Virus record (IMG/VR): IMGVR_UViG_3300010885_013421
Location: 1-20,021 of that record
Source of the DNA: a virus
Length of the DNA stretch: 20,021 nucleotides
Strand: one strand, 5' to 3'
The stretch's first letter is position 1. Each line of letters begins with the position of its first letter. Under the pieces are notes generated by a model. The model was not told the DNA's origin. It was given only the letters and a program-made list of their open reading frames with translations, and did no database searches. Below, in pieces: positions 970 to 18,521 of this stretch. The position numbers and the translations under genes were made by a program.

Positions 970-3758
970 CTTTGGGTGTCTCCGTGGATCAGGTACAGGT
1001 CAACCTCCAAGCTCTTTGCAGAACTATTCGTCGTGTATACGCCGATTTGCGGCATTAGTCCACCCGTAGGCAGGTCGGTCACAATCTCCGCGCCTGCATC
1101 AAGCCCATCTACAAGGCCCTGTATCCCCGATTCTGTGACCCGAAAGCCAATATCCACCCATCCCGCCCCTGCATTCTCTCCTAAGTCCTCGGTCGTTTCA
1201 GACGTGCCATCCCTCGCCACTGCGTACCAATGCCCCGTTGTGCCTGTCCTACGCACAATAACGCCGATACCTGATTGCACATTGACCGCCCCGCCATCAG
1301 GGTACGTCTCTGCACTCCACAGCCCGATCCATGCAATAATCTGCGTATTGGCTCCAAGAATCCGCGTCCTAACCCGAAACTCATAGCCGATCGGCGGCTT
1401 GCCATAGAACGGGGGCGCGGCTTCGCTGCCGATCCTGATAATCGTCCCGTAATCTGCAACGGCTACGCCCCCAACATCAGGCGTTGTAACCACCACAACC
1501 CCAGGCGTTGACCAATCCCATGAGCTTGTCAGGGGTGAAGGGGCTGACACAGGGGCCGAAGTGATATTCGTGAGGTCAGCCCCGATGAATTGCGGAGTCC
1601 AGTCCAACTCACCGATCCGGTCATCTTCAAGCCGGGTGAAGTCATCCCGCAGCACATACCGGCTTGCGGCAGACTCAACAGACATCACCTCTTCAAATAT
1701 CACCCGGTCAACCGCCACAAAGTAAGCGTCCGCACTCTTGGCAATGATGGGTTGCGCATAGACCGCCCCATCAGGAGGGCAGCCTTGAAGCCGTCCCGAT
1801 TGCCACTTATCGACCGATGTAACGGCGCTATTGGTCAGGTAATCCGTGGCCAGCGTCGATAACCCCGCCGATAGCCACTTGACGCCGATATAGACGTTGT
1901 AAGCAAGCGAATTGGCCTTGTACCTGCAATGCAGGCTGTAACGCCGCCCCGTCGCCACCGGGATCAGATCCCCATCAAGCGCCGTCGCCACCGAGGTATC
2001 AGCCAACAACAGGGCCCGATCCCCCGTTTCGGGTAGGGTATAGGTGCCGCCATCGTCAAGGCGGGCATCTGTGTCCCAAACGCCCACAATCATAGACCAC
2101 CCATCAGGGGCCCACAAATTGCCCCTGGATAGGCAATCTGCGCTGAATGTGCCCCCTCGGAAGCCCCCGCCCGTGCGAGCCAATGACGCCAATAGCTGCG
2201 GCCCCGCCCGACGCGCAACGCGGTTCGTAACCCTCTGGTAAGAACCTCGGTTCCCATAGATGTCCATAGGATATACACAAATATCCACAGGCTCACCGAT
2301 AGGCGTCTTTGAGAGGTCGGGCAAAACTGTTAGCAGACTGCCCCGCGTTGACCCTATCACCGTTTCGGTCAGGCTTGCGATATTTGGCGTAAACCCGCTT
2401 TGTCCTACATGAACTTCAAACCTGTCAATAAACGGGCTTGCAGGCATTTCCGTTAGGATGCTCATGATGTTATCACTTGCACCAACAGAATCAGCAAGCG
2501 GCCCATACATTTTGAGCTTAGGTGCAACGCCGTTATTGCCACTCATCTGCAACCAAGACGTTGTACCGCGCGTTGGCACACTGCCCCGAAGCTGCAACGA
2601 TGTTTTGACGCCTTGCACGCCCACACTATGCCGATAGCCCACAACAGTTAGTGTAATATCCGTGTCGCTATGGTAGCCGTCAGCGGTAAACGTGTATCTA
2701 TCGTCAAGCTCAACAAACGGCCAAAACATCATATCTACGGCCAATATCGCCGTGGGCTCTGCCAAGTCCGACAAACAGTTATCCGCCATCGTCTGCGCTT
2801 CGGTCAATGTATTGATAGCCGACGTTGCAGCCTCACTTATTGCCATGACACGCCGCCCATAGCTTGTAACACTGGCGCTATTGGTTGCCGTGGTGGTGGT
2901 ACGCACCGGTTGACCGCTGCTATCTAAGCTGGTGGGGTCCGACCATGTAACCGGTATTACATTTCTAATATCGTCAATAGCCTTGGAAAGCTGCGTAAAA
3001 TCATAGTATTGGTCAGCCGTAAACGTCCTATCAACTGTGCTTTTTGTGCGGTCAGGCGCATAGAAGGTCAACCTGAATGCAGACGTGCCAGAATCCCACC
3101 GATACCGAAGTTGCCAGCCAATCTGATCCGTTACCTTGGTCAGCTCATCAAGTAGGCTCTGCTTCTCTGAATTGTATTCAAGCAGCATCCAACCCGGAGA
3201 AGTTGGCGTGTAAAGTGTCACAACACTTGTACCAAGCGTATCGTCAAGGATGTCCTGTATCACAGTTTCCGCAGCCGTCCCGCCACTGCTTCCCCACGTC
3301 GCTTCAGTCTCAATTTGCCTATCTTGAAGCACGGCTATTTGGTCGCGACACCCAATATGTATCGGGTCCGCCGCCCAATCAATAGAGTCGATCTGCCCCC
3401 TGAAAACCTCAACCCAATCAGCACTTGCCGGTTGAACCCCAGCGGGCATGATGGCGGCATCAATGACGATTGCACGCCGCAGGTCAAGAAGCACCCCACC
3501 GCCGATGAGGTTTGCACGGGCCCCTGTACGCCCCGGTGCAAGGCTGTCATTGTACCGATCCCGCCGGATCTCAATGTCAGCGGTCACACCTTTAGCATCA
3601 ACATCTTCGCCCCACGACGCTGATACCAGCCAATCAAACCCCAATAGCGCCGATAAATCTTGCATAGTCCCGCTGTAATCTGCCACCCGCACACGAAACC
3701 AGCGCCCCGCTTGGGGGCTTCTAAGGGCGGCTTCTTGCGATGCGGTAGGGGTTCTCAT
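966..3758 (-). CDS. Tail hub / tail-tip protein with C-terminal carbohydrate-binding-like domains
   Basis: 930 residues from ATG 3758-3756. The ATG shares one base with the upstream TGA and has GAGGT a few bases before it, so it is preferred over an in-frame TTG one codon earlier. Residues about 1-400 look like a siphophage tail hub or baseplate protein: WVEVFRGQIDSIDW near 115-128 and the conserved-looking DELTKVTDQIGWQLRYRWD near 204-222, followed by beta-rich sequence. Residues about 420-540 may be a fibronectin III-like spacer. About 545-700 and 750-930 are beta-rich, aromatic segments resembling galactose-binding or concanavalin-type jelly rolls, for example GYEFRVRTRI and GHWYAVARDGTSE. 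The protein follows the distal tail gene and precedes the fibre, which fits the tail tip. The domain assignments are by eye. No lysozyme or peptidase motif was recognised. Confidence 0.7.
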   Translation of the reverse strand: MRTPTASQEAALRSPQAGRWFRVRVADYSGTMQDLSALLGFDWLVSASWGEDVDAKGVTADIEIRRDRYNDSLAPGRTGARANLIGGGVLLDLRRAIVIDAAIMPAGVQPASADWVEVFRGQIDSIDWAADPIHIGCRDQIAVLQDRQIETEATWGSSGGTAAETVIQDILDDTLGTSVVTLYTPTSPGWMLLEYNSEKQSLLDELTKVTDQIGWQLRYRWDSGTSAFRLTFYAPDRTKSTVDRTFTADQYYDFTQLSKAIDDIRNVIPVTWSDPTSLDSSGQPVRTTTTATNSASVTSYGRRVMAISEAATSAINTLTEAQTMADNCLSDLAEPTAILAVDMMFWPFVELDDRYTFTADGYHSDTDITLTVVGYRHSVGVQGVKTSLQLRGSVPTRGTTSWLQMSGNNGVAPKLKMYGPLADSVGASDNIMSILTEMPASPFIDRFEVHVGQSGFTPNIASLTETVIGSTRGSLLTVLPDLSKTPIGEPVDICVYPMDIYGNRGSYQRVTNRVARRAGPQLLASLARTGGGFRGGTFSADCLSRGNLWAPDGWSMIVGVWDTDARLDDGGTYTLPETGDRALLLADTSVATALDGDLIPVATGRRYSLHCRYKANSLAYNVYIGVKWLSAGLSTLATDYLTNSAVTSVDKWQSGRLQGCPPDGAVYAQPIIAKSADAYFVAVDRVIFEEVMSVESAASRYVLRDDFTRLEDDRIGELDWTPQFIGADLTNITSAPVSAPSPLTSSWDWSTPGVVVVTTPDVGGVAVADYGTIIRIGSEAAPPFYGKPPIGYEFRVRTRILGANTQIIAWIGLWSAETYPDGGAVNVQSGIGVIVRRTGTTGHWYAVARDGTSETTEDLGENAGAGWVDIGFRVTESGIQGLVDGLDAGAEIVTDLPTGGLMPQIGVYTTNSSAKSLEVDLYLIHGDTQR
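1824..1833 (+). repeat. Dispersed motif GGCGCTATTG
   Basis: Exact copy inside the hub gene; the coding strand reads AAT AGC GCC (Asn-Ser-Ala). Confidence 0.9.
2874..2883 (+). repeat. Dispersed motif GGCGCTATTG
   Basis: Exact copy in the hub gene, again Asn-Ser-Ala (TNSAS). Confidence 0.9.
3642..3651 (-). repeat. Dispersed motif GGCGCTATTG, reverse copy
   Basis: Exact copy near the hub gene start, read as GCG CTA TTG (Ala-Leu-Leu). Confidence 0.9.
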
Positions 3759-4567
3759 CAAACCTCACTTATCGTAAACGACAACTCGCGGCCAGCGCCA
3801 TCCCAAGCACCTGCGGAGTCGTCGTAAAACTGAATATATTTCCCTGAAACTTCGCTGCCTTCAACCTGCAAAGATGTCTCCTCTATAAAATCGCCTGCAA
3901 CTTCTAACCGTGGCAGATCCGAGAAGGCAGCCGTCGCCGCCCCAATCACGGCAGCCCATGAAGCAGGAATAATGAAGGGAATACTTACCAAATCATCAAA
4001 GTCCTGCGGCGCTATTGATGCTGCGTCACCCAAGATTGCTGCCGTGGCCAACATCTCTAAAAAGTCGATTGAACCGCCATAAGCAGCGCCGTCACGGTAC
4101 TTCGTGCCGTCGCTGCACTTGATATAGTGGTGCCAAGCACCCGATTCGTACCGCCACACCATCAGGGCCCAAGGCGACGACAAAGGCACCTGCACGCCAT
4201 AGGTGAGGCTTCCCCCCGCCGTCAGCCTGATATACGCGCTTCCGAATTTGGGCGATGGCGTGGCCGTTCTGCGGGTCAGCGTGCCCACCAGGGTAGTGTA
4301 CCCCAACCCCTTGCTACTGTAGGCGTAATAGGTGGCGTCATCAAAGCCCCAATGGTGCCCATATCCGCGTAACAGCCCAATCCAGGCGGTTGCCGTCGCG
4401 CTGCCTATCGGCGGCGTCCTCATGGTCCACGCGCGCTTATATGCCCGTATAGACGACAATAGCGTCCCGCTGAATGCGCGCCCACGCTCGCCCACCTCGT
4501 CAGCGTTCTCATCGGCGTTATCGTTGAGGATACCCAACTGCAAGCCGTTTACTGTAATGAATGGCAT
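3758..4567 (-). CDS. Distal tail / minor tail protein (tail-tip adaptor)
   Basis: 269 residues, starting at ATG 4567 inside the TAATG junction with the tape measure gene and ending one base into the next gene's ATG. The opening MPFITVNGLQLGIL is a typical beta-strand start of minor tail proteins of this position. SGTLLSSIRAYKRAWTMRTPP and SATATAWIGLLRGYGHHWGFDD suggest a distal-tail fold that caps the tail tube. A middle part (about 130-160) is aromatic and may be surface exposed. Position between tape measure and hub supports a role as the ring linking tube to tip. I recognise the architecture rather than a named family, so the product name is an inference from order plus weak sequence character. 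Confidence 0.6.
   Translation of the reverse strand: MPFITVNGLQLGILNDNADENADEVGERGRAFSGTLLSSIRAYKRAWTMRTPPIGSATATAWIGLLRGYGHHWGFDDATYYAYSSKGLGYTTLVGTLTRRTATPSPKFGSAYIRLTAGGSLTYGVQVPLSSPWALMVWRYESGAWHHYIKCSDGTKYRDGAAYGGSIDFLEMLATAAILGDAASIAPQDFDDLVSIPFIIPASWAAVIGAATAAFSDLPRLEVAGDFIEETSLQVEGSEVSGKYIQFYDDSAGAWDGAGRELSFTISEV
4008..4017 (+). repeat. Dispersed motif GGCGCTATTG
   Basis: Exact copy in the distal tail gene in the third phase, read within Ser-Ile-Ala-Pro. Confidence 0.9.
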
Positions 4568-7500
4568 TATGACCCCAGGATAAAACGTGGTGCGGTTGGG
4601 ATAGAGATACCCGTCTTGCGATAGCGGCGCTTGTTGGCCTCTTTCTCCAATCGGTCAAAGAGATCCGCAGGGTCGGCGGCAGTGATAGCGGCGATATTGA
4701 TAGTGATGCCACCATCACCGCGACGTTGAGAAGAAGCCGATGATGCTGCCTTACTCTGTGATACACCCTCTGCGGCAATGGCCTCAAAGCGCGCCTGAGC
4801 TATCTTGAATCCGCTCGGCACATTAGAGAGTGCCGCCGTTGCTTCTGTAGCTGCATCCGCCATCATGGCGGTTTGTGCGCTTGCCTGCGCCGTTGCGTAT
4901 GCGCTTTCGTAGGTGGTACCCGCCAAAGTCTGCATAGCTTCGGCGGTTCCTGCCGTATCCACCTTCATATCTTCCAAAGCAGCAATAGCGCCGTCAACCT
5001 TATTTGTAACTTTGCTGATAACTTCAAGAACGGTAATTATGATGTTGAGAATACCGTTCCATACGCTGCCGATTGCATAGGCAATGCCCAACACAACAAA
5101 TGCGACACCTTTCATAACAGTAAACAACACTTGGAACGCAAACTCAACAATAGGCCCGATTGCGTTGAGCACGTTGCCGAATATCTGAAATATGGTGCCA
5201 AACACCTGCATCATGGTGACTACCATCATCATCGCTGGCCCCAATTGAGATAGCACATTGCCCATGAATTCAAAGATAGGTGTAAGGGCCGAAAATACCG
5301 CAGCAATGGCCTGCATTGCAGGTATCAACCCTGCACCCAACCCATTAAAAATCGGGTCAAATGCTACCATTATATCGCCAAGAACCTTGTTTATACCGTC
5401 GGATAACCTCTGAAACCCAGGCGACAGTGTAAGGAGCTGCACGGTTGCAGCTGCAAGCGCCCCTTTGATGCCACCTGTAGCAAATCCTTCCATTGCAGAT
5501 TTTATGATGCTACCCGTATTTCCACTTGCAGAAAGCACAGTATCAAGCAGCCCCTTTCTAAACTCCATTACGGCCTTTGCGGCATCCGCATAGATTTTGT
5601 TCATCTCGTCAATAGTACCGGCAGAATCAAGCACCGCCTGATCCATGGTGGCGATGCTATCCCGCAGCATTGACGCCTGAATAGCGGGCCCTGTGCCTGC
5701 AAGCATCATCTCCGCTGCAATAGCAGCCTGATGGGCCTCCTCATAGTCTTTGGCCGCCTGTGCAGCATCCTTGGCCGCCTTAGAGGCCCCACTGCCTGCA
5801 CCCCCGCCGCCGGGGGGCGGCTCCCCGTTGAGCATATTCTGAAGCGTCTTGCCATAGTTGACAAGCGACGATTTTGCCTCATCCACCCAACCCGAAAGGT
5901 CAGGCAGTTTAAAGCTAAGTCCTGACACATTTGCAAAGTTTGACCGTGTGGCATTGAGAGACGTCTGAGCATCTGTCAGTTTCATTCCAACGCCTGCCAT
6001 TTTTGCCTGCATCCCAGGAACCTGCATCAATGCTGCAACAATCGCCTGCACCGCAGCAATTGCATCACTCGCCATATCAATAAAACCTTGACGCAAACTC
6101 TCTAACTTATCAGATACAAATGTTGATGCAGCTTCCATACCAAGTCCAAGGGCATCCATCAGGCCATCTGTGCCATGTGCCATAATGCCCATACTGGCCA
6201 GCCATTCAGTAGCAACAGACGATACCACAACCCCGATGGCATCAACAATGGTTGGAATAGTGCTAACAACCGCATAAAGTGCGCCTGCAATCTCCTGCAT
6301 CCCGCCGAAGTCGTTGACCCATAGTTCATACAGGGCGACGACGGCAGCAATCACGGTACCGGTGATGATGGCTGCAATAGACAGCATTGAAGCAGCAAAG
6401 GTGCCCACTACAATCCCAAGCCAAGCAAAGGTAGCAGCCAAGGCCGCCATCACGATCAACAGGGGCCCGCCCGCTGCATCAAGGGCAAGGGCCCCCACGG
6501 CAGCCGAGAACAGCGATCCTGCGGTCGCCAATGCCGATCCAGCCGCCGCTACCAACGCACCCGATAGAGCGGCCATCGTCGTGCCCAAGGTGCCTGCTGA
6601 TACCATTGCAGCCAACATTGAGAGGTTCATTACAGCGGTATCAATCGCCGCTGCTGCTGCAAATAGGTCAAAGCTGGCCATAGTCGCAAGCAGCGGGATA
6701 AACGCAACTGCAAGGCCGATAACCGTTGCAACCACAACGCCAACGCCTGAAACAATAGCGCCAAGGGCACCCAGGATAGATGGCGCAAACAGCATGGCTG
6801 CCCCTGTGGCCACCCCAAGCGCAACACTAAGCGCCATAAACCCACTTACACCGTAGCTAATAACCATCTGCATAGGTGCGGATAGCTGCCCAAAAGCCAC
6901 GGCCAAATAACCAACGGCATCGGCTGCTTTAGCAAGCCCGTCAAAGATGGGCTTGAGCCCCGATAGCAAGCCGGGAAGGATGGCAGAAATGGCGGGTATA
7001 GCCTTGGAAAGTGCGTCTATGAGCGGGTTTGCCATATCTGACAGCGGTATCTTGATGCTGTCCGTCAGTGTGCTCCAAACGCCTGCAAGCGTCTTACTTT
7101 GATGCTCCATCATGCCGCCATATTTCTCTTGAATGCCTAACATAATGGCATTGAGCCCAACCGCAGACGTAACAGCGCCCTTGCTAATCTGCTTATATGC
7201 TTCAGGTACGGATACGCCCATGTAATCTGCAAGCATACCGACTGCATTGATGCCCGCGTTCTTGAATTGGTTTAGCGCCCCAAGTGACACTTTCCCGGCG
7301 CTATTGATTTTGCCGAACGCTTGAATCATGCGTGGTAACTTCTGCGCCATACCATTGGGCATAGATGACGCGGCATCGCCCAAAGCCGTAAGCACCGGCA
7401 ACACATTCTCTGCGGCAAAGCCTGTAGCGATCAGTTGTTGAGCGCCTTCGGTCAGGTTTTGCGTATCAAACGGCGTTACAGCCGCCATATCTCTGATATT

Positions 7501-7746
7501 CGTCATCATGGTTTGGGCGGCTTCTGCGCTCCCAAGCATGACCTCCATACTCATTGCCGCCTGCTGAAACGACGACGCAGATTCAACGCCTGCAACAACG
7601 GCGGCTGACAGGGCAACGGCAGATGCCGCCCCTGCGGCTTGGGCGGCGCTGGTCAGAACGTCCAAGCCTTCCAAAGCTGTGTCGATACCCGCAGTCCAAT
7701 CCGAGGCGTCAAGTAGAAGCTTTGCAATTAGCGCGCCGAGATCCAT
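4567..7746 (-). CDS. Tail tape measure protein
   Basis: 1059 residues, the longest protein here. The start ATG 7746-7744 has a strong AGGAGG ribosome binding site 5 bases upstream (7757-7752) and overlaps the stop of the frameshifted chaperone (TAATG). Residues about 60-240 match the TP901-type tape measure core: SASSFQQAAMSMEVMLGSAE, then TPFDTQNLTEGAQQLIATGF, KINSAGKVSLGALNQFKNAG, and GVWSTLTDSIKIPLSDM. Several hydrophobic, alanine-rich stretches lie between about 260 and 500, and again near 790-930; such segments are thought to help open the host membrane. The C-terminal part is polar and helical. At the commonly used 0.15 nm per residue the length would correspond to a tail near 160 nm, so a siphophage-like long tail is likely. 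Confidence 0.95.
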   Translation of the reverse strand: MDLGALIAKLLLDASDWTAGIDTALEGLDVLTSAAQAAGAASAVALSAAVVAGVESASSFQQAAMSMEVMLGSAEAAQTMMTNIRDMAAVTPFDTQNLTEGAQQLIATGFAAENVLPVLTALGDAASSMPNGMAQKLPRMIQAFGKINSAGKVSLGALNQFKNAGINAVGMLADYMGVSVPEAYKQISKGAVTSAVGLNAIMLGIQEKYGGMMEHQSKTLAGVWSTLTDSIKIPLSDMANPLIDALSKAIPAISAILPGLLSGLKPIFDGLAKAADAVGYLAVAFGQLSAPMQMVISYGVSGFMALSVALGVATGAAMLFAPSILGALGAIVSGVGVVVATVIGLAVAFIPLLATMASFDLFAAAAAIDTAVMNLSMLAAMVSAGTLGTTMAALSGALVAAAGSALATAGSLFSAAVGALALDAAGGPLLIVMAALAATFAWLGIVVGTFAASMLSIAAIITGTVIAAVVALYELWVNDFGGMQEIAGALYAVVSTIPTIVDAIGVVVSSVATEWLASMGIMAHGTDGLMDALGLGMEAASTFVSDKLESLRQGFIDMASDAIAAVQAIVAALMQVPGMQAKMAGVGMKLTDAQTSLNATRSNFANVSGLSFKLPDLSGWVDEAKSSLVNYGKTLQNMLNGEPPPGGGGAGSGASKAAKDAAQAAKDYEEAHQAAIAAEMMLAGTGPAIQASMLRDSIATMDQAVLDSAGTIDEMNKIYADAAKAVMEFRKGLLDTVLSASGNTGSIIKSAMEGFATGGIKGALAAATVQLLTLSPGFQRLSDGINKVLGDIMVAFDPIFNGLGAGLIPAMQAIAAVFSALTPIFEFMGNVLSQLGPAMMMVVTMMQVFGTIFQIFGNVLNAIGPIVEFAFQVLFTVMKGVAFVVLGIAYAIGSVWNGILNIIITVLEVISKVTNKVDGAIAALEDMKVDTAGTAEAMQTLAGTTYESAYATAQASAQTAMMADAATEATAALSNVPSGFKIAQARFEAIAAEGVSQSKAASSASSQRRGDGGITINIAAITAADPADLFDRLEKEANKRRYRKTGISIPTAPRFILGS
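4983..4992 (-). repeat. Dispersed motif GGCGCTATTG, reverse copy
   Basis: Exact copy in the tape measure gene, read as GGC GCT ATT (Gly-Ala-Ile). Confidence 0.9.
6753..6762 (-). repeat. Dispersed motif GGCGCTATTG, reverse copy
   Basis: Exact copy in the tape measure gene, read as Gly-Ala-Ile within LGAIVSG. Confidence 0.9.
7297..7306 (+). repeat. Dispersed motif GGCGCTATTG
   Basis: Exact copy in the tape measure core, read as Asn-Ser-Ala within KINSAGK. Confidence 0.9.
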
Positions 7747-8296: not shown

Positions 8297-8316
8297 TGGG
8301 ATGGTCCTTGGGGCTT

Positions 8317-8970
8317 TTAGCCGATGGTTGGAGTGACAATTGTACCGTCAACCGCACGGGGGGCGGTTGACTTGAAAGTGGCGGTTGCTTTGAGCAAATC
8401 CGCTACCGCTGCATCCTCTTTTTCAGAGGGCACAATCACGAAAGCCCGGTATGCGCTGCCCGTCCCGCCGGGGGTGACTGACAGAACGACCGAGGTTCTA
8501 TTGAGAAAGATGCTTGAAAGTTTGCGACTACCCGCGCCGGGGTCCATATCGGCAGTCAATAGCGCCAAAGTCTCAACGTCAACTGTGAGTTGCATCAGAC
8601 CTGCGGCGCTATTCTTCCAACCTGAACCAAAGACGCTCGTATCCAATTCGTCAGCATCAAGGCTAATACCTGCTGCACGCCCCTCTAAGAAGGTGAGGCG
8701 CGGCAAGTAAGAGCCGCTAACAGTAATGGGGCCGGTTTTGCTGCTTGTGAAGGTGACTTTTCCAAACAGGTAATCAACCGCCAGAATATCCGACGCACTG
8801 ATTGCTATACCGTTGTCATAAAAGGTGAAAGTTGCAGTCGGGTCAAAAACTCGCTTTGCACTTGTCACCTGATAGGGGCCTGCACCGCTACCGGTCATTG
8901 CCTCAGCGACCATAGCCGTGCTTGTCCCTGTGATTTCAATGACGGTATTGTATGCGGGTGTTGCAGACAT
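8317..8970 (-). CDS. Tail tube protein, second paralog with N-terminal extension
   Basis: 217 residues from ATG 8970. Residues 107-119 (DELDTSVFGSGWK) and about 186-194 (DAAVADLLK) match DELDTSKFGSSGWK and DAAVADLVK of the gene just upstream, with nearly the same spacing between them. The two proteins are therefore related copies. This copy has about 70 additional N-terminal residues (VIEITGTSTAMVAEAMTG and onward) and a longer C-terminus. Tail tube proteins stack as hexameric rings around the tape measure. A second copy may be a minor tube protein, a decorated ring subunit or a terminal ring. Which copy forms the main tube cannot be told from sequence. The start is supported by an AGAGG-type site some 7 bases upstream. 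Confidence 0.75.
   Translation of the reverse strand: MSATPAYNTVIEITGTSTAMVAEAMTGSGAGPYQVTSAKRVFDPTATFTFYDNGIAISASDILAVDYLFGKVTFTSSKTGPITVSGSYLPRLTFLEGRAAGISLDADELDTSVFGSGWKNSAAGLMQLTVDVETLALLTADMDPGAGSRKLSSIFLNRTSVVLSVTPGGTGSAYRAFVIVPSEKEDAAVADLLKATATFKSTAPRAVDGTIVTPTIG
8557..8566 (-). repeat. Dispersed motif GGCGCTATTG, reverse copy
   Basis: Exact copy in the second tail tube gene, read as Ala-Leu-Leu. A one-mismatch copy on the other strand (GGCGCTATTC, 8605-8614) lies 38 bases away. Confidence 0.9.
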
Positions 8971-8979
8971 CGGAGCCTC

Positions 8980-10163: not shown

Positions 10164-10501
10164 ACCCGCACCTCGTAGTGTGAGGTGCTGCCAGAGGTCA
10201 GGCCAGGCAGCCGCTCCACTTGGTAGATGGTACGGGCGGCTGCGGCGCTATTGTGATCCGCGCCGGGTAGCCAAATACGATCCCCTTCAAGGGGTACGCG
10301 CGTCGTGTTGAGAATCACGAAGTGCGTAGTCTTGATGGTCGTTCCGTTCGGGCCATCGTAGCTTTTTTCAGACAGTTCGACGCGGGCAGCAACGCTTGTT
10401 GCCGTGCCCCACGTCGCTTGCCCCATACTGTTTCGGCCCGTCACAGATGACAGGTAAACAGTATCAGTCAATAGCGCCAATAGTGCAGGATTCAGCGCCA
10501 T
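10160..10501 (-). CDS. Head closure / head-tail joining protein
   Basis: 113 residues from ATG 10501 (TAATG overlap with the connector gene). The sequence fits the small beta-barrel head-tail adaptor family: TDTVYLSSVTGRNSMGQATWG, then ARVELSEKSYDGPNGTTIKT, HFVILNTTRVPLEGDRIWLP, ending in a strand YEVRV. The usual length is 100-120 residues. It would plug the portal-connector channel and receive the tail. The family is recognised by pattern only. Confidence 0.75.
   Translation of the reverse strand: MALNPALLALLTDTVYLSSVTGRNSMGQATWGTATSVAARVELSEKSYDGPNGTTIKTTHFVILNTTRVPLEGDRIWLPGADHNSAAAARTIYQVERLPGLTSGSTSHYEVRV
10244..10253 (+). repeat. Dispersed motif GGCGCTATTG
   Basis: Exact copy in the head closure gene, Asn-Ser-Ala within DHNSAAAA. 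Confidence 0.9.
10469..10478 (-). repeat. Dispersed motif GGCGCTATTG, reverse copy
   Basis: Exact copy at the start of the head closure gene, Ala-Leu-Leu. It is followed by a partial second unit (CAATAGTGC). Confidence 0.9.
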
Positions 10502-10977: not shown

Positions 10978-11864
10978 TAGGCTACCACGTCCACAATGAA
11001 GGACTCACAGATTGCAATATCCGAGGCACTTGCGGCGCTCCAAGTCCCGCGCAAGTCCACAGCCAAAGCGCCGTTTGTGGCGTAATCGGCAGGAGCAAGC
11101 ACATAGCCCTTCGTGGCATGAACGCCCGCAACAGAAATCGTCACATTGCCTTCTGCTGCCACCTTTGAAGTCCCGCCAGGGGCCTCTCGGCTGGTGATCA
11201 GGAAGTCAAAGCGGGCAACGTCGTTGGCAACCATTGCTACCGCTGTAGTGGTGACGATGGCGGTCCCGCCCAAACGCAGCTTGAAAAGCAGCGTATCGGC
11301 GGCGGCGTTTCCGGTCACCCGCACCGAACCCCGTACCCGCAGCGTTGTACCTGCTTTGAGCATGCTTGCAGGCAGGGTATGGCTTGCAAGCGTGGTTTCA
11401 GTATTGCTGTTGGTGAGGGTGGTAGACGTGATCTTTGTGTGAACGTTTCCACCCACGATCCGCGCATTTCCACTGGTTACACCGTCCGTTGTGGTCATGC
11501 GGGCAACGAAAGCATTGCTCAAGTATAGAGCAGTGTGCCAATCGTTGGTGCTTGAAATGCGCGCGCCCTTGACCCATGCAGCTTCGCCAGGGGCAAGCGT
11601 GATAAGGGTTGTGGTTCCATCTGCCTTTTTGACCACAACATTGTAAGTTGTGCCAACGTTCCAGATGACGTACCACCGGCCAAAGGCATAGCTACCGGCA
11701 ACAGCTGTAAGTGTAAGATTACGGTCTGCACCGGAAGCCGTCACCTTTTGAAAGTGGGCGCTATTGCTGGTCAATGCCCCATCAGCAGATAGGGTGAGGG
11801 CACTAAGCCCCCCGCCTGCCATCAACAGTAACGCCCCAAAAGCATATAAAGGATTGCCAGCCAT
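10977..11864 (-). CDS. Beta-rich virion protein, possibly head fibre or decoration; function not recognised
   Basis: 295 residues from ATG 11864, with AGGAGG four bases upstream, one of the best ribosome binding sites in the window, so high expression is likely. The N-terminus has a hydrophobic stretch (AFGALLLMAGGGLSALTL, about residues 8-25) that could be a membrane or secretion signal but lacks a lipobox cysteine. The rest is strand-rich with repeated T/S/A/G. It has a capsid-appendage look around FGRWYVIWNVGTTYNVVVKK and LPASMLKAGTTLRVRGSVRV, a pattern I associate with phage fibres and spikes. Its place between major capsid and connector suggests a head-borne protein. A tail role or surface display is possible. 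Confidence that it is coding is high; function is a guess. Confidence 0.6.
   Translation of the reverse strand: MAGNPLYAFGALLLMAGGGLSALTLSADGALTSNSAHFQKVTASGADRNLTLTAVAGSYAFGRWYVIWNVGTTYNVVVKKADGTTTLITLAPGEAAWVKGARISSTNDWHTALYLSNAFVARMTTTDGVTSGNARIVGGNVHTKITSTTLTNSNTETTLASHTLPASMLKAGTTLRVRGSVRVTGNAAADTLLFKLRLGGTAIVTTTAVAMVANDVARFDFLITSREAPGGTSKVAAEGNVTISVAGVHATKGYVLAPADYATNGALAVDLRGTWSAASASDIAICESFIVDVVA
11757..11766 (+). repeat. Dispersed motif GGCGCTATTG
   Basis: Exact copy in the beta-rich virion gene, Asn-Ser-Ala within TSNSAHF. Confidence 0.9.
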
Positions 11865-11873
11865 GAAGCCTCC

Positions 11874-12875
11874 TTATGCCACAACGCCGGTTAAGAAGTA
11901 CCCAAGCGCAGAATCGACGACCTTGAAGTCTTCGGCGTGCTTGATCTGGTACCACTGCTCTTCAGAGCGGAGATCCACACCATTACGGATCATGATGCCA
12001 TCAACGCTGCCGGTCAAGCCGTTCCATGTGAACATCGATCCAGCGGTGGGGTCAATGGGGGAAGGGCTTGGGGCGCGATAGGCAAGCAACACGTTTTTGC
12101 CAGCCGCGAAATCCATAGAAATCGCCGCGCCGGGATTGGCGGTGTTGTATGCAACCTCGCCAACCATCACCTCATCCAACTCAAAGAGTTGGGCGATTTG
12201 CTGGCGGGTAACCTCGCGGATGTCCTTGACATTGGTAACCGCAGTGACGCGGGCCACAATCAGGGGGTGATTCTTGACTTTGGTCCAAACCTGATAGCCC
12301 ATGCCCATCACGTTGGGGCGGATACCGGTCGCCTTTAGAACCGTCTCAATGCCGGTTTCAATGTCGGTAATTGGGTCCGAAGTGGGGTCATCCCAGGTGG
12401 GCGAAGGGGTGACATCACCCGTCCACTTGCCCGTGGTAAAGAAGTTGCTCACCCAGTTCAATTCACGCCGGAGGTACGCAGCCCGGGCCAAGGTCCGGGT
12501 AGCGGCTTGGTCGCGTGCAAGCGGGATACGCCAGTTTGCAGCCAACTCTGCGCTCATCGGGAATTCAGCTTCATACACCTGACAGAAGAAGGTGCTTGAA
12601 GTTGTGACACCCACACCAATTTGAGGCTTGCCACTGGCAGGGGCCTTGAGTTGGGTGGTATTGCGCATGGAGTCTGCACGACTGATCGCCGCAAAGTTCC
12701 CGCCCTGAAGATCAGAGGGGTATGCGGCAAAGAGACGGTGCAAGCCGCCCTGCGACTGGAAATAAGCATTGCAGACGTTGGGCAGCAAGGGGTTGATGTA
12801 CACATCCCCAGGCTGCGGATTCACGCTTTTTGCAATCTGGGTGATGCTGGGACCACCTTGGATAATGGCGCTCAT
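11874..12875 (-). CDS. Major capsid protein
   Basis: 333 residues from ATG 12875, preceded by AAGGA nine bases upstream. Recognisable elements include the start with NPLLPNVCNAYFQ, the region FFCQVYEAEFPMSAELAANW, the helix with TRTLARAAYLRRELNW, and VMGMGYQVWTKVKNHPLIVARV, a pattern (VMG..VW.K.K.HP.I..R) frequent in HK97-fold coat proteins of phages that lack a long N-terminal delta domain. Scaffold and decoration genes directly upstream support this. The end LRSEEQWYQIKHAEDFKVVDSALGYFLTG resembles the A-domain end of such coats. Hundreds of copies would form the shell. Confidence 0.88.
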   Translation of the reverse strand: MSAIIQGGPSITQIAKSVNPQPGDVYINPLLPNVCNAYFQSQGGLHRLFAAYPSDLQGGNFAAISRADSMRNTTQLKAPASGKPQIGVGVTTSSTFFCQVYEAEFPMSAELAANWRIPLARDQAATRTLARAAYLRRELNWVSNFFTTGKWTGDVTPSPTWDDPTSDPITDIETGIETVLKATGIRPNVMGMGYQVWTKVKNHPLIVARVTAVTNVKDIREVTRQQIAQLFELDEVMVGEVAYNTANPGAAISMDFAAGKNVLLAYRAPSPSPIDPTAGSMFTWNGLTGSVDGIMIRNGVDLRSEEQWYQIKHAEDFKVVDSALGYFLTGVVA

Positions 12876-12886
12876 AGCTTATTTCC

Positions 12887-13261
12887 TTATGGTGCGACGT
12901 GCGCAAAGAGGTTGACGTTGGCTTGCTCGCCGCTTGCGCCGCCCGTCAGTGCGACGCCAATAGCTGAATTGCCCGTGCTTGCAGCAACAATCTTGCCATC
13001 GGAGTCGGTCTTTACGGAGTTCCCGGCGGTAACAGACCCACCACAAACTACAGGGCAAACGCCGCTATAGATGACTTCGGCGGGCTGACCGGCAACAGAG
13101 GGTTTGTTGCCGAGAATGTAGGGCTTGACCGATGCGGCACCTGCAACAACGGCCTCACCATCGCTATTGATGCTGAGTGCGTAGTATTGCTTGGTTGAAA
13201 GGTCAACATCAGCAGGCGCAGTGAACGACTGACGATTGATATGGGTGGCAGTGGTGGTCAT
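12887..13261 (-). CDS. Capsid decoration / stabilising protein (DUF2190-like)
   Basis: 124 residues from ATG 13261, overlapping the scaffold stop as ATGA. The protein is glycine-, alanine- and valine-rich and all beta in character. YYALSINSDGEAVVAG, then SVTAGNSVKTDSDGKIVAA, then SAIGVALTGGASGEQANVNL match the pattern of DUF2190-type phage proteins, often found next to coat genes and thought to bind the outside of the capsid. The repeated G..V..DSDGK.V motif implies small beta-barrels. Family assignment is by pattern. Confidence 0.75.
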   Translation of the reverse strand: MTTTATHINRQSFTAPADVDLSTKQYYALSINSDGEAVVAGAASVKPYILGNKPSVAGQPAEVIYSGVCPVVCGGSVTAGNSVKTDSDGKIVAASTGNSAIGVALTGGASGEQANVNLFAHVAP

Positions 13262-13692
13262 TGGGCGCGGGCCTCATCGTAAAGGGTGGGATCGGCTTCA
13301 AGGGCGGCAGTAGTGGCAGCGGCCTTGGTCATGCCCTTGGCGATATTGGCGTCAACAGCTTTTTGCAGGCGTTCGGATACACCTGCGGGGGCACCTACCG
13401 AGCCGATCCGGGTAGTCAACGCACTGACGGCGGATGCCTGCTTGGCCAGCTTAACCAACTCCGCATTGATGCGGTTGTAGGCTTCGGGGCTGGCCTTTTG
13501 CACAGTGCGCAGGTCGGCAGCCAGAGAGGCATCAACGCCGGGGGGCATGGCCTTGACGATGGCGGTGAGGGCTGCTTCTTCCTGCATTTTTGCAAGGTCA
13601 GCCTGCGTCTTTGCAAATTCGGCTTGGAGCTTGGCAAAGGCTTCGTCGCGCTTGGCCAACTCTTCGGCGGTGGGGGTGGCTTCGTTGGCCAT
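13258..13692 (-). CDS. Nested short scaffold from internal start
   Basis: In-frame ATG 13692-13690, beginning MANEATPTAEEL, is preceded by AGGAG (13702-13698) with a 5-base spacer, a stronger signal than anything at the long start. The shorter 144-residue product would lack the VDKGDNP module and contain only the coiled-coil scaffold. Nested scaffold genes inside a longer head protein are known in other phages (lambda Nu3 within C). That both forms are made here is an inference from the binding site. Confidence 0.6.
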   Translation of the reverse strand: MANEATPTAEELAKRDEAFAKLQAEFAKTQADLAKMQEEAALTAIVKAMPPGVDASLAADLRTVQKASPEAYNRINAELVKLAKQASAVSALTTRIGSVGAPAGVSERLQKAVDANIAKGMTKAAATTAALEADPTLYDEARAQ

Positions 13693-13827
13693 TGAGGCTC
13701 CTGTTTGGGAAAGGGGTGCTGCCTTCAAAATAACCGCACCGGCAAGCGGGTTATCGCCCTTATCGACAAAAGAGATTTCGTTGATGCGGGTGATGAACAG
13801 GTCATTTCTCTTCTGCGGCGTAGGCAT
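13258..13827 (-). CDS. Capsid scaffolding protein with N-terminal VDKGDNP module
   Basis: 189 residues from ATG 13827. A GTG two codons earlier (13833) is possible, but the ATG lies exactly 6 bases after a -10 box, which suits a leaderless message. Residues about 8-40 carry NEISFVDKGDNPLAGAVILK, a module often seen at the start of phage protease or scaffold proteins. From about 46 on the protein becomes helical: AEELAKRDEAFAKLQAEFAK and what follows form a coiled coil, typical of internal scaffolds. The C-terminus is again alanine-rich and helical. A second good start lies at 13692. The scaffold would fill the procapsid and be removed by the protease encoded upstream. Confidence 0.8.
   Translation of the reverse strand: MPTPQKRNDLFITRINEISFVDKGDNPLAGAVILKAAPLSQTGASMANEATPTAEELAKRDEAFAKLQAEFAKTQADLAKMQEEAALTAIVKAMPPGVDASLAADLRTVQKASPEAYNRINAELVKLAKQASAVSALTTRIGSVGAPAGVSERLQKAVDANIAKGMTKAAATTAALEADPTLYDEARAQ
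13698..13702 (-). promoter_or_regulatory. Internal ribosome binding site in the scaffold gene
   Basis: AGGAG on the minus strand, 5 bases before the in-frame ATG 13692. It decides the start of the short scaffold form. Confidence 0.65.
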
Positions 13828-13833
13828 GGGCAC

Positions 13834-13863
13834 AGTGTAAAGGCGTTATTGCTGGCCTTGCAA
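13834..13863 (-). promoter_or_regulatory. Candidate leaderless promoter for the scaffold-to-tail genes
   Basis: Minus-strand -35 TTGCAA (13863-13858), 18-base spacer, -10 TACACT (13839-13834), then 6 bases (GTGCCC) before ATG 13827. Transcription would begin at or next to the start codon. The spacer contains a GGCGTTATTG-type motif (13842-13851). Not tested. Confidence 0.55.
13842..13851 (+). repeat. Dispersed motif variant GGCGTTATTG
   Basis: The only copy outside a coding region. It sits in the spacer between the -35 and -10 boxes of the scaffold promoter. Confidence 0.75.
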
Positions 13864-13888
13864 GCAGGGTAGAATCTTAGCTGCTCAC

Positions 13889-13905
13889 AGCGTCACCTTG
13901 ACGCT
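13889..13905. promoter_or_regulatory. Inverted repeat, candidate operator
   Basis: AGCGTCA and TGACGCT form a perfect 7-bp dyad around a 3-base centre. The right arm covers the -35 box of the plus-strand promoter, the classic place for autorepression. Confidence 0.5.
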
Positions 13906-13926
13906 ATAGAGCCGCTATGGTACGCT
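13898..13926 (+). promoter_or_regulatory. Candidate leaderless promoter for the plus-strand small gene
   Basis: TTGACG (13898-13903), 17-base spacer, TACGCT (13921-13926), then exactly 6 bases before ATG 13933. The geometry mirrors the divergent promoter at 13834-13863. Confidence 0.55.
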
Positions 13927-13932
13927 TGGGGC

Positions 13933-14145
13933 ATGGCCAAACGCACAGAACGCACCACATGCCGCGCGACACCCCTTGACCAAGCAATTATTGATGCAGG
14001 GGCAACAATCGCCACACTTGACACACCTGCTTTCATGGTACAGGCGGCAGCAGAAAAGGCGCGTCAGATGGTTTCACCTGCGCGCCTTGCAGAAATTGAA
14101 AGCAGGTTTTCAGATAGCGGTGCGGGTACCGCTGCCACCGATTGA
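13933..14145 (+). CDS. Small ribbon-helix-helix-like DNA-binding protein (DUF1778-type)
   Basis: 70 residues, the only convincing plus-strand gene. The layout fits the ribbon-helix-helix regulators and antitoxins of the DUF1778 type: a short strand (RTTCRAT, about 7-13), helix (PLDQAIIDAGATIA, 14-27), turn with TPAF, then helix (MVQAAAEKARQMV, 35-47), in which P..Q..I..A and F...AA...AR recur. The likely role is a transcription repressor that binds as a dimer to the dyad at 13889-13905 and controls itself and perhaps the scaffold promoter. No acetyltransferase toxin gene lies beside it. The 3' end overlaps the protease gene on the other strand by 36 bases, and the start is set by the promoter just upstream. 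Family assignment is by eye. Confidence 0.6.
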   Translation: MAKRTERTTCRATPLDQAIIDAGATIATLDTPAFMVQAAAEKARQMVSPARLAEIESRFSDSGAGTAATD

Positions 14146-15183
14146 GAAGGCAGATACTTCACCGGCTTTGATGCGCTTCCAAAGGTCGGCATCGTTCACT
14201 TGCACACCCACCCACCAAGCGCCATCAGGCGCATTTGCAGGAGTGCCACCCATTTTTGCGAGCGTCTCATGGTCAATCCATACGCTTGCAATCAGGGTAG
14301 CCTCTGCGTCTTTTTCGTGCATCTCTCGGCTTTTTACCTTGCCAAAGCCCTCATAGATGGCCTTTTTGAGACTGGCGACGTCTACCACATCGCCGCTGTG
14401 GTCAACAACGGCGGTTCCATCTGCATTCTTGGCAACGTAGGCATAGCCAAAGACCTGCTGTAAGTCAGGGTCAGTCTTGGTTATTGTGACCTCAAACCCT
14501 ATCCGCTTGGCCATCTCACCTTCTGCAACAGGCTCACTGTCAGCCAATAACGCCGACAAGGCATCATAAGCCGTCTGCAACGTCGCGCGGTTTGCCGCCG
14601 ATAACATCCGCCCCACCTTCTCAACTTCGGTGCTATCTTCCTGCATGTCCTCCTCAACCCAAGATGCACCGTCAAACTTGAAACGCCCGTAGGAGCCGTC
14701 TGCAAGCCGAACCCACCCGCCCATCTCACAACACAGGTCTAACGCCAGGAAGTAAGCGCGATCATCGCACATCCCGGCCCCTTGTGGCACGGGCATCGTG
14801 AGTGCGTTCCACCGCGCGCAGAACTCGGATTGAAGCTCGGTGGGCATCCCGGCGATCATGGTGGGGGTCAGATCTGCGGGGGTGCAGGGGATTGGTAGAT
14901 CCGGGGGGTCATAGGCGACGTCATAGGGCCAGCCCGCCTCATCATAGTACCCCTTGGCAAGCCTTGCCCCACCAAAGGCAGGGGTCAAGAGATCTGTCAA
15001 CCCCAAAGCCTTGGCACGGCGTTTGATATGGCGCTTTGCACGCCCTACATTTGCTGCACGGCCAACAGATTGCATTGCTGCAAGCAGGTCGGCCTCATTG
15101 GCAATGGGGTAGGAGCCATCGGGAAGGGCCTCGCCTTTGCTGGCCATTTCGCGGCGTTGGGCGGCGGTGTAAGCTTTGTCCAT
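14110..15183 (-). CDS. XkdF-like prohead protease with N-terminal extension
   Basis: 357 residues from ATG 15183 (TAATG with the portal stop). Residues 1-65 show the recurring phage module REMASKGEALPDGSYPIANE followed by a basic helix (GRAKRHIKRRAKALG). Residues about 226-350 match the XkdF-type putative serine protease: GFEVTITKTDPDLQQVFGYAYV, VDHSGDVVDV, REMHEK (His near 289), and the terminal AFSIGG (Ser near 347), which are the candidate catalytic surroundings. The middle (100-200) is less conserved and contains the low-complexity acidic run EEDMQEDSTEVE. Fusion or association with the capsid gene block is usual. It should cleave scaffold and capsid subunits during maturation. Its 3' end overlaps the plus-strand gene. 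Confidence 0.8.
   Translation of the reverse strand: MDKAYTAAQRREMASKGEALPDGSYPIANEADLLAAMQSVGRAANVGRAKRHIKRRAKALGLTDLLTPAFGGARLAKGYYDEAGWPYDVAYDPPDLPIPCTPADLTPTMIAGMPTELQSEFCARWNALTMPVPQGAGMCDDRAYFLALDLCCEMGGWVRLADGSYGRFKFDGASWVEEDMQEDSTEVEKVGRMLSAANRATLQTAYDALSALLADSEPVAEGEMAKRIGFEVTITKTDPDLQQVFGYAYVAKNADGTAVVDHSGDVVDVASLKKAIYEGFGKVKSREMHEKDAEATLIASVWIDHETLAKMGGTPANAPDGAWWVGVQVNDADLWKRIKAGEVSAFSIGGSGTRTAI
14545..14554 (-). repeat. Dispersed motif variant GGCGTTATTG, reverse copy
   Basis: In the protease gene, GCG TTA TTG (Ala-Leu-Leu). Confidence 0.75.
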
Positions 15184-16445
15184 TATTCTGCCTTGGGGGT
15201 AGGGAGTTTCGGAAGCCCTGCGCTGTCCCGCACATACTCTTCAAGGGCGGCATCGGGGGTGAGGATGCCTTCTTTGACGGCGGTGCCTAAGAGGCTTGCA
15301 AGGGCTGACAGGTTGGGGCTATCAATGGGGCCGTGTGTTAGCTTTGGCATATACTTAGCATCAATGCCGTTTAGTTCGCACAGTGGTTTGATTGCCTGTT
15401 GGTTGAAGCAATCGGCTATATCGGTACACCAACCGGTGAGAACGATGCCTAAAAGCTCGGTTTGGTCGGCACTAAGGGCGAAGCTGCCGCTTGCCGACTG
15501 GCCCAATAGCAGGAATTGTGTCAATAACGCCGATGCAATGCGCTGCTCATACATATTTGCAAGGGCAAGGCCATCCACGCGCGGGCGCTGTGCCCCTGAC
15601 AGCATACCGATGTCCCAACCGGTACGGTTCCCATCAGCATCATAGGTTGAAGGCCGAACAATGCCCGACCGTTCGCCGCGTTGCATAGTGGCTACGGACT
15701 TCTTGACTGAATCGACGGTGGCTACGGCTACTGTGTCGCCGCCCGCCGCTGCGGTGAATGTGTCGATAGGCACCTGTAGATCGAGCATACCGGTTGCATC
15801 ATGCCGTAAACCGATCTGCAAGTCGGTAAGGGTGTCCATCAGGTTTCTATAATAAATATAGAGCGAACGCAGGATCGCCCGCCCTTCGGGGCTGCCCATG
15901 GTGGGATCGGCAATGTAGTGCAGGCTCTTTGCCGCAGAGATTACGGCGTGCTGCCCGGCATTGGTAAGCTGTTCCAGGGCTACGACGTGTCGCCCATCAT
16001 CATCCCAAATCCAACTAAGCCGGGTATCTTGACGGCAAAAATAGAAGCCTTCCCAGCCCAATAAGCCGCTACCAATGCGCTTATACACTACCTCATGCCA
16101 TGACCAACCCAACATCGCGGCGGATAGCATCTCTGCAAGCACCTGCCCCCATGAGACGGCCATTTCTTGCCATTGGGTACGCACAAAATCAGCGGCGGTG
16201 ATGGCGTTGGGGTCACCGCCAATACTCGGCGCAATTGACCATCGGCATTGCTGGCAAATCGCGGCGATAATGCGCTGTGTCGTCGCGATCAACCCGTGAT
16301 TGTCAAGCATCTCCCGATATTTACGGTCTGCCTGTGTGCCCTGTAGCTCACGATGAACCTCGTCTGATCCAGGGTATGAGCGGTTACCATAGACGGGGTA
16401 GCCGGAGAAGCCAATGCGGGCGAAGTTGACGGCAGGATCAGACAT
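15183..16445 (-). CDS. Portal protein (DUF935 / Mu gp29-like)
   Basis: 420 residues from ATG 16445; 31 bases separate it from the terminase stop. The order IIAAICQQCRWSIAP, then MLSAAMLGWSWHEVVYKR and GLLGWEGFYFCRQDTRLSWIWDDDGRHV, is typical of DUF935 portals, where W.E..Y.. and a loop with aspartates precede the conserved core. QLTNAGQHAVISAAKSLHYI and ALANMYEQRIASALLTQFLL correspond to the crown and stem helices. Portal proteins form the 12-fold ring through which DNA enters. The downstream neighbour is a protease, the upstream neighbour the terminase, the canonical arrangement. The length is slightly below the roughly 500 residues of Mu gp29. Confidence 0.85.
   Translation of the reverse strand: MSDPAVNFARIGFSGYPVYGNRSYPGSDEVHRELQGTQADRKYREMLDNHGLIATTQRIIAAICQQCRWSIAPSIGGDPNAITAADFVRTQWQEMAVSWGQVLAEMLSAAMLGWSWHEVVYKRIGSGLLGWEGFYFCRQDTRLSWIWDDDGRHVVALEQLTNAGQHAVISAAKSLHYIADPTMGSPEGRAILRSLYIYYRNLMDTLTDLQIGLRHDATGMLDLQVPIDTFTAAAGGDTVAVATVDSVKKSVATMQRGERSGIVRPSTYDADGNRTGWDIGMLSGAQRPRVDGLALANMYEQRIASALLTQFLLLGQSASGSFALSADQTELLGIVLTGWCTDIADCFNQQAIKPLCELNGIDAKYMPKLTHGPIDSPNLSALASLLGTAVKEGILTPDAALEEYVRDSAGLPKLPTPKAE
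15522..15531 (-). repeat. Dispersed motif variant GGCGTTATTG, reverse copy
   Basis: In the portal gene, GCG TTA TTG (Ala-Leu-Leu within SALLTQF). Confidence 0.75.
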
Positions 16446-16476
16446 TGGGAAAGGCTACCTCTGTTTGGTGGTCGCG

Positions 16477-17928
16477 TCAAGCATTGAGGGCGTTCATGGC
16501 GGCGGCGGTAAAGCTGTGATTCTTCTTTGGCCCAAAGGTGTCGTCAAGTCCATATCGGCACCCGTCCAATGCGTGCTTCAGTGCTTCCTCGTCCACAAAG
16601 TGATAGAAGCTCTGAATAAGTGACTTGCAATCTTCACTAACAAAGAACCGATCTTCCATCTGCGCATGAGAGATTTCGCCGTGGCCAAACTCAACCGAGC
16701 CCTTGGTCTTGTTGGGCACCTCAAACTTGAATGGGCATACACGCACGCCTAACTCTTTCGCAACCGCAAGCTCAAACGCCGTGTTGCACGATTGGCCCAT
16801 GCCAAGCTTCCCGGCGCTATTGACATCCCCGCGCGCCCTTCTGATTGCCGTGGCGGGTATGCCGATGGCCTTTAGCAGCTTCACAAATTCGGCGGCGTCC
16901 ATTGCGGGCGTCGTCGTCTCTTTGCTTACATATTCACCCAAGACAAGGTAGGTATATGGTGCCTTTGTGCCTACAATGCCCTCAACATAAATCGCAGTCT
17001 TGCCCCCACCTTCACCCCAATCTGCGCCTATACGGAACTGGTCAATCTTGTAAGTATCCAACATCCAACGCAGGCTTTTTATGTGGCGGTCCCCAAAGGC
17101 TTGGAAACGTCGCCCGATAGTCAAACCCTCCCACCCACCATTGATGCGCTGTTCTGTTTGCCCCTGTGCCGCCGCCTTCTTTTTCTGTGCCTCAATATCT
17201 TCAGGCGTGCGGTGGGGGCTATCTTTCATTGATAGCACAATGATGATCTTCTCCCACACTTCGGCGGGGGCCATCCCTGATTCGGGGTCGCCTTCTACCT
17301 CTTTCTTTAGCCATCCCAGGGGGGCATTGACAGCAGTAAAGCCTATCAGGGTGGGGCCGTTGCCCACCGACACGCGCATACGCCCTGCGGCCCAATGGCC
17401 GGGCTTAGGGGGCTCATCGAAGAAGATGGCGTCTACTGTGCCGGATTCAAGGCTCTTTGCGTCTTGGGTGCCGCTCTTGAATTGCACCTGATAGCCGTCT
17501 TTGAAAACAAGCCATGTATGCCGCTTTCCCTTCTCAATGAAACTGTAACCGCTTGCTTCTGACCATGTACATGAGGGGTGCAAGACGTTGGGCGGTTCTA
17601 CCTCGTGCATCTTTGCGCAGAACTCAGGATAACCGCTCTCAAAGTCTTTTATCACGCACCATGCCTTCCCATGCGTGCGCGTTATCGGTCGGTAGGGGTG
17701 CCACCCAAGACCCTGCCACCATATTTCAGCGCAGATAAGGCGGGTTTTCCCTACCTGATTACCCGCCATCACGATCCGGTTGACGCCCTGTGCCATGTGG
17801 GCGCGACGTTGCCCTGGGCTCATGCCGCCCTTGCCTGCCTTGAAAGTCGCATAGACCATCAGGGGGTCATTGGCAATCTTTGCAACCAGGCGCAAAGCTT
17901 CTGGATCGTTTGGTAGGGCTCGGCTCAT
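16477..17928 (-). CDS. Terminase large subunit
   Basis: 483 residues from ATG 17928, which overlaps the small-subunit stop as ATGA; a GTG at 17955 is in frame but would overlap 31 bases. Walker A is AGNQVGKTR (about residues 55-63) and Walker B is AIFFDE (about 167-172), the ATPase motor. The C-terminal nuclease shows its acidic residues in RIGADWGEGG (Asp near 303), RGDVNSAG (Asp near 368) and RYGLDDTF (near 460-467). FQSGTQ-like FKSGTQDAKSLESGTVD precedes Walker B as in related phage terminases. The enzyme docks on the portal, pumps DNA into the procapsid and cuts it. cos or pac packaging cannot be decided from this sequence alone. Confidence 0.92.
   Translation of the reverse strand: MSRALPNDPEALRLVAKIANDPLMVYATFKAGKGGMSPGQRRAHMAQGVNRIVMAGNQVGKTRLICAEIWWQGLGWHPYRPITRTHGKAWCVIKDFESGYPEFCAKMHEVEPPNVLHPSCTWSEASGYSFIEKGKRHTWLVFKDGYQVQFKSGTQDAKSLESGTVDAIFFDEPPKPGHWAAGRMRVSVGNGPTLIGFTAVNAPLGWLKKEVEGDPESGMAPAEVWEKIIIVLSMKDSPHRTPEDIEAQKKKAAAQGQTEQRINGGWEGLTIGRRFQAFGDRHIKSLRWMLDTYKIDQFRIGADWGEGGGKTAIYVEGIVGTKAPYTYLVLGEYVSKETTTPAMDAAEFVKLLKAIGIPATAIRRARGDVNSAGKLGMGQSCNTAFELAVAKELGVRVCPFKFEVPNKTKGSVEFGHGEISHAQMEDRFFVSEDCKSLIQSFYHFVDEEALKHALDGCRYGLDDTFGPKKNHSFTAAAMNALNA
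16813..16822 (+). repeat. Dispersed motif GGCGCTATTG
   Basis: Exact copy in the large terminase nuclease domain, Asn-Ser-Ala within DVNSAGK. Confidence 0.9.
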
Positions 17929-18521
17929 TCGTCGTCTTTGCTCAACATCTCCCACACTTTCTGCGCATCATCGGCGTATGTGGTGATGTTTTGCACAGTG
18001 CCGCTGTGCTCAATTTCTTGCTTGGGTGGGCGAAAGTTGGGGCGGCAACTCAATCGCCATTGAGCCGTTCCTGCGCCGCGCGGGTTGGCAACGTGCTCTT
18101 TGCCCCTTACAATAGCGCCGTTAGCATCTCTGCTATCCGGGTCACGCGCAATCACCACATGATCGTCTGCATGGGCTTCGCGGATCAGTATATGCTCTGC
18201 CACTGAATCGGCACGACTGATTGCATCAAAGAAACGCAGGGCAGCGGCGTCTCTTTCGGTGAGGTCGTTTTCGTCAAGCTCACCGTCGTTGATGCGGTCG
18301 GCTATGTCACGCCCCGCTGCTTTGGCGCGGCAAACGCTGCGATGTGTCCAAGTCGCCTTGCAACTTTGTGTAAGTGCGCTTTCAATTGTGTACCGGCTTG
18401 TGCGGATCAACCCGCAGGCTCTCGTCAGTTCTTCGGGGGTGATGCGCATGAAGATGGGGATGGGGCCCGTCCCCTTATGCCCACCACCACCGCCCCCATA
18501 GGGGTAGCGGGGGTCAGCCAT
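17925..18521 (-). CDS. Probable terminase small subunit
   Basis: 198 residues from ATG 18521, overlapping the glycosyltransferase gene by 8 bases and the large terminase start by four. The N-terminus has the glycine hinge YGGGGGGHKG. Residues about 30-75 (ELTRACGLIRTSRYTIESAL and the next helix with THRSVCRAKAAG) look like a helix-turn-helix, as in small terminases that bind the packaging site. The middle is helical and acidic (GELDENDLTERDAAALRFFD), suiting oligomerisation. The C-terminal part is polar and may contact the large subunit. Position directly before the large subunit is the main argument; the sequence family itself was not recognised with certainty. Confidence 0.6.
   Translation of the reverse strand: MADPRYPYGGGGGGHKGTGPIPIFMRITPEELTRACGLIRTSRYTIESALTQSCKATWTHRSVCRAKAAGRDIADRINDGELDENDLTERDAAALRFFDAISRADSVAEHILIREAHADDHVVIARDPDSRDANGAIVRGKEHVANPRGAGTAQWRLSCRPNFRPPKQEIEHSGTVQNITTYADDAQKVWEMLSKDDE
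18110..18119 (-). repeat. Dispersed motif GGCGCTATTG, reverse copy
   Basis: Exact copy in the small terminase gene, Gly-Ala-Ile within NGAIVRG. Confidence 0.9.

Follow-up and report, generated by a model that had tools for sequence, protein, structure and literature searches.

A lineage-specific 10-base motif dispersed over both strands of related lake phage genomes

Why should one 10-base word recur, on both strands and in gene after gene, along a phage genome? The question arises for a 20,021-base stretch of viral DNA (referred to here as the window), which covers the structural half of a tailed-phage genome and encodes tail proteins, a tape measure protein, major head protein, scaffold, protease, portal and large terminase, as well as a TET-associated glycosyltransferase (TAGT) and a ParB-like protein. 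For an 8.3-kb stretch of the window, the deposited phages offer no near match. A sequence-only reading had claimed strong over-representation of GGCGYTATTG on both strands, and our counts reveal that it is stronger than first stated: the window contains 17 copies of this word against 0.16 expected (100 dinucleotide shuffles, the largest giving one), and 20 copies, ten on each strand, of the consensus GGCGNTATTG. All 13 copies of GGCGCTATTG reported earlier are present (0.25 expected from an order-3 Markov model), and so are the three reported copies of GGCGTTATTG, of which a fourth, on the minus strand at 1256, had been overlooked; the copy with a single mismatch at 8605 reads GGCGCTATTC, as announced. 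With one mismatch allowed, three copies of GGCGATATTG (at 2742, 4690 and 13339) also belong to the motif. The fifth base of GGCGNTATTG is free, but none of the 20 copies in the window has G there. The other nine positions seldom show a single substitution, the core being all or none, and the pattern read backwards does not occur in the window.

Three IMG/VR contigs with 77-92% portal identity also carry the motif, with the same density: L009 (25 copies of GGCGNTATTG in 18.4 kb), L077 (16 in 13.3 kb) and L323, the full contig of L318 (20 in 18.9 kb). Together with the window they contain 81 sites in 70.6 kb, i.e. ~1,150 per Mb. L009 comes from the Lake Soyang freshwater virome (PMC7553992), and the carriers of the motif are a small group of lake bacterial viruses; when tail protein and terminase were used to search for further viral relatives, the same contigs came back and nothing more. 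The four carriers are mosaic, in that terminase, capsid and DNA-modification genes are swapped while the motif stays. The large terminase of the window differs from that of the other carriers, and no relatives of it were found in a search of viral contigs and phages; the major head protein of L077 differs from that of the window (36% identity). In L077, the segment 9885-11257, which encodes a divergent scaffold and major head protein (36-37% identity), is flanked by genes 61-95% identical to those of the window. Next to the terminase, the window carries TAGT as its modification gene, L009 and L077 carry Mom, and neither was seen in L323 between the resolvase-like and small-terminase ORFs. TAGT adjoins the ParB-like gene in the window (18514-20017), and Mom fills that slot beside ParB in L009 and L077, which suggests a swappable DNA-modification cassette. 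The protein encoded at 18514-19380 is classified as beta-glucosyl-HMC-alpha-glucosyltransferase in PHROG and as TET-associated glycosyltransferase in Pfam, and its close relatives (57%) occur, next to a partitioning protein, in records that bear the label Escherichia phage.

The presence of such swapped modification genes would agree with GGCGNTATTG being the recognition site of a phage DNA-modifying enzyme or, as in the T5, phiKMV-like and tf phages, of a nicking enzyme, the nick sites of tf being a dispersed 9-mer. We consider this quite improbable, since the tf nicks lie on one strand (PMC3517423) and the motif is equally frequent on both, and since the modification genes vary among the four phages, neither having been seen in L323 in the interval named above, whereas the motif is constant.

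Comparison of the window with L009 shows how individual sites have fared. In the tail genes we found GGCGTTATTG at 1256..1265 (-; the 931-aa gene) and GGCGCTATTG at 1824..1833 (+). They are followed by the GGCGATATTG variant at 2742..2751 (-) and GGCGCTATTG at 2874..2883 (+), both retained in L009, by GGCGCTATTG at 3642..3651 (-), retained there as GGCGTTATTG, by GGCGCTATTG at 4008..4017 (+) in a 269-aa gene, and by the GGCGATATTG variant at 4690..4699 (+), again retained. The tape measure gene contains GGCGCTATTG at 4983..4992 (-), 6753..6762 (-) and 7297..7306 (+), the last of which is retained in L009, as is the copy in the major-tail-protein-like gene (8557..8566, -). The copies at 10244..10253 (+) and 10469..10478 (-) are retained with the free base changed from C to T, and another copy lies in a 295-aa gene (11757..11766, +). 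Beyond the GGCGATATTG variant at 13339..13348 (+), GGCGTTATTG is found in an intergenic position (13842..13851, +; retained in L009), in the prohead protease gene (14545..14554, -; in L009 the free base is changed from T to G, and Leu to Val) and in the portal gene (15522..15531, -; retained with T changed to C). GGCGCTATTG recurs in the large terminase gene (16813..16822, +) and in the presumed small terminase gene (18110..18119, -), and the remaining stretch, 18120-20021, is without the motif.

Since these phages are related, and since the sites favour one codon phase, the pattern might be suspected to be an artefact, arising from codon usage, repeated peptides or the common descent of the sequences. 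Over the four phages, phase 2 holds the majority of the sites, phase 0 a smaller number and phase 1 few; the earlier claim that the copies occupy all three phases is corrected to this uneven distribution. However, a synonymous codon shuffle, which retains each protein and its codon usage, gives a mean of 0.71 copies and a maximum of 5 in 2,000 trials for the window, against 19 coding copies, and a mean of 1.15 and a maximum of 7 for L009, against 23 observed. With a mean of 0.7 against 19, codon use and peptides cannot explain the motif, just as the sequence-only reading had asserted of peptide conservation; enrichment holds under a third-order Markov null and a codon-shuffled null alike, and relatives carry the motif, so that neither of the two outcomes named beforehand as refuting that reading was observed. 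Codon alignments show, in addition, that 10 of 15 aligned sites are retained between the window and L009 (1.2 expected), 7 of 17 for L323 (2.4 expected) and 4 of 6 for L077 (1.6 expected), where the expectation was taken from the same genes and the same codon phases. Half of the sites retained in L009 have changed at the free fifth base alone, sometimes with alteration of the amino acid, and other sites were gained or lost between the two phages. The codon shuffle and the conservation above the same-gene, same-phase background refute the explanation by artefact, against which the gain and loss of sites among relatives also speaks, and we regard it as hardly credible. The motif is maintained by selection on the DNA itself, independent of the protein.

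The sites are evenly spaced, with a mean coefficient of variation of 0.66 against 0.93 for random placement (P 5e-5, which is optimistic because the four phages are related and not independent). The smallest spacing in the four phages is 132 bp, and none of the 77 spacings is below 100 bp, against ~8.5 expected; helical phasing of the spacings was not detected in these phages. Most sites are intragenic, and with respect to gene strand 45 of the 81 are sense and 36 antisense, i.e. there is no bias. The core appears to be preferentially preceded by YATC, mainly at sense-strand sites, which may be codon bias.

Analysis of more distant relatives reveals that the motif is confined to the lineage described above. 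Phages at ~50% portal identity (L078 and L319-L322) have one copy or none, and MCP relatives at ~30% identity have nothing past a stray copy. Two further contigs, G421 (L324-L326) and G422 (L327), with 52% portal identity and ~63% GC, carry another 10-mer, TGGCAGNGGC, dispersed on both strands (31 copies over the 43.8 kb of G421, 12 over the 19.4 kb of G422), for which a codon shuffle of 23 kb of G421 genes gives 1.5 copies against 14 observed. G421 and G422 are nearly identical where they overlap and therefore represent one case, and the spacing of TGGCAGNGGC in them is not clearly even. Among the genes of their lineage are one for a C5-cytosine methylase and one for a ParB-like protein. We scanned 72 phage and bacterial stretches of >= 11 kb for 10-mers that have one free base and are dispersed on both strands; the two motif lineages score 10.6 to 22.1 and all others <= 7.6. 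The repeats of L014, L216, L319 and L322 were rejected as dispersed motifs, being tandem, one-sided or local arrays. L319 (3704-4008) and L322 (271-640) contain clustered iteron-like repeats, TGGGACACWT and TTGGTTACAC, which are possibly replication origins or transposon ends; in L014 (6130-8440) the ACACCCGTGTTGA repeats, on one strand and at multiples of 66 bases, belong to a repetitive protein gene and are no dispersed motif.

It had been suggested that the phage simply shares a host-wide motif, akin to an uptake sequence or to HIP1. In ~1,500 bacterial look-ups (Pseudomonadota 399, Alphaproteobacteria 289, Sphingomonadales 251, Burkholderiales 250, Actinomycetota 199, Bacteroidota 118 and 20 others, some genomes being drawn twice) the highest density of GGCGNTATTG was ~60 sites/Mb against ~1,150/Mb in the phages, which leaves the suggestion unsupported; the result counts against a widely shared host motif but falls short of proof. 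In 299 Pseudomonadota TGGCAGNGGC is at background level. A host search via inverted and direct motif pairs yielded, among the matches listed, chance-like hits and was ill designed, since true sites always lie at least 132 bp apart; among the matches listed for the motif sequence in the literature we found apparently unrelated primer or sequence matches. An iterated motif of a host outside the sample, which would have reached the phage by ancestry, recombination or the same selection, is in our estimate unlikely: uptake sequences are likewise asymmetric 10-mers, intragenic, evenly spaced and present on both strands, but in addition to the low density in the bacteria sampled, close inverted pairs are absent here and relatives switch to TGGCAGNGGC.

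A Chi-like role, in which host RecBCD or AddAB would stop degrading linear phage DNA at the motif, the phage would stock both strands with it and the hosts of different lineages would read different Chi sequences, also appears rather unlikely. The site is asymmetric, intragenic, lineage-specific and present on both strands at one per kb, and L009 and L077 encode a Holliday-junction resolvase, but its nine fixed bases exceed the length of known Chi (5-8 bases). Known Chi sequences are enriched in hosts and in phages without recombinases of their own (PMC3784561), and Pseudomonas Chi is without strand bias (PMC5959072); however, that enrichment is host-wide, whereas none of the sampled genomes is enriched for GGCGNTATTG, and the motif is about five times as dense as Chi in E. 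coli phages (PMC3784561).

The reading that we tentatively prefer, with somewhat less than even confidence, is that a sequence-specific DNA-binding protein, probably one of the phage's own, uses GGCGNTATTG as its lineage-specific site and acts genome-wide and irrespective of orientation. A 10-mer that is protein-independent, evenly spaced, orientation-free and follows the lineage argues for a reader that recognises this sequence and acts over the entire genome. That the phage encodes this reader fits best, since the motif goes with the phage lineage, is a different one in the sister lineage and is unseen in the bacteria sampled. According to this model, sites at ~1 per kb on both strands would be retained by selection on the DNA, and the presumed phage protein would read them at many places in the genome, whatever the orientation of the genes, with a role that may consist, e.g., in silencing, compacting, marking or protecting phage DNA. 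We found no such protein in the contigs, which represent chiefly the structural rather than the replication and regulatory half of the genome, and the reader may instead be host-encoded. It is conceivable, although we are more doubtful here, that in this family of tailed phages the motif is a lineage-specific 10-bp tag, swapped between sister lineages, that it serves a co-evolving phage protein as a code for self-recognition or genome organisation, and that this code differs from stoperators, Chi, uptake sequences and nick sites.

Elsewhere, iterated motifs have led to the machinery of uptake, to recombination at Chi, to networks of repressors and to methylation systems. In the present case, a 10-mer is held once per kb across a clade with freely swapped capsid, terminase and DNA-modification genes, and a sister lineage holds another 10-mer; some factor in infection presumably reads the whole genome at a spacing of ~1 per kb. 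If the host is found, one motif count in its genome would tell whether the motif is a signal of the host or a code of the phage, and the motif can already be used as a marker for fragments of the clade.

Comparison with known systems reveals partial similarities to several of them. The DNA uptake sequences of Neisseriaceae and Pasteurellaceae are likewise iterated words of ~10 bp, genic, evenly spaced and on both strands, but they extend over the host chromosome and frequently form close inverted pairs acting as terminators; a chromosome-wide excess of GGCGNTATTG was not seen in the ~1,500 bacterial look-ups, and no pair in the four phages is closer than 132 bp. HIP1 of cyanobacteria is highly iterated too, but it is a palindrome, GCGATCGC, host-wide and methyltransferase-linked (PMC4390886), while GGCGNTATTG is asymmetric. 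With the nicks of T5, phiKMV-like phages and tf the motif has in common a short dispersed consensus that differs between related phages, and it differs from these one-strand sites by its 10 + 10 distribution in the window. Like Chi, it is asymmetric, present on both strands and enriched in phage DNA; unlike Chi (which occurs at 0.2/kb in the genome of E. coli and at 1 per 3 kb in that of P. syringae; PMC3784561, PMC5959072), it is longer, has a density of ~1/kb against ~0.2/kb and has no enriched host among the genomes sampled. The stoperators of cluster A mycobacteriophages (L5, Bxb1) lie predominantly in one orientation relative to transcription and are read by the phage repressor (PMC6550527), whereas our motif is mostly within genes (45 sense, 36 antisense), and no repressor was found in the contigs, which mainly span the structural half. 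As in the stoperators, however, the site is asymmetric, of similar length and dispersed over the phage genome, and its consensus is lineage-specific (PMC6550527), differing between related lineages, here GGCGNTATTG versus TGGCAGNGGC.
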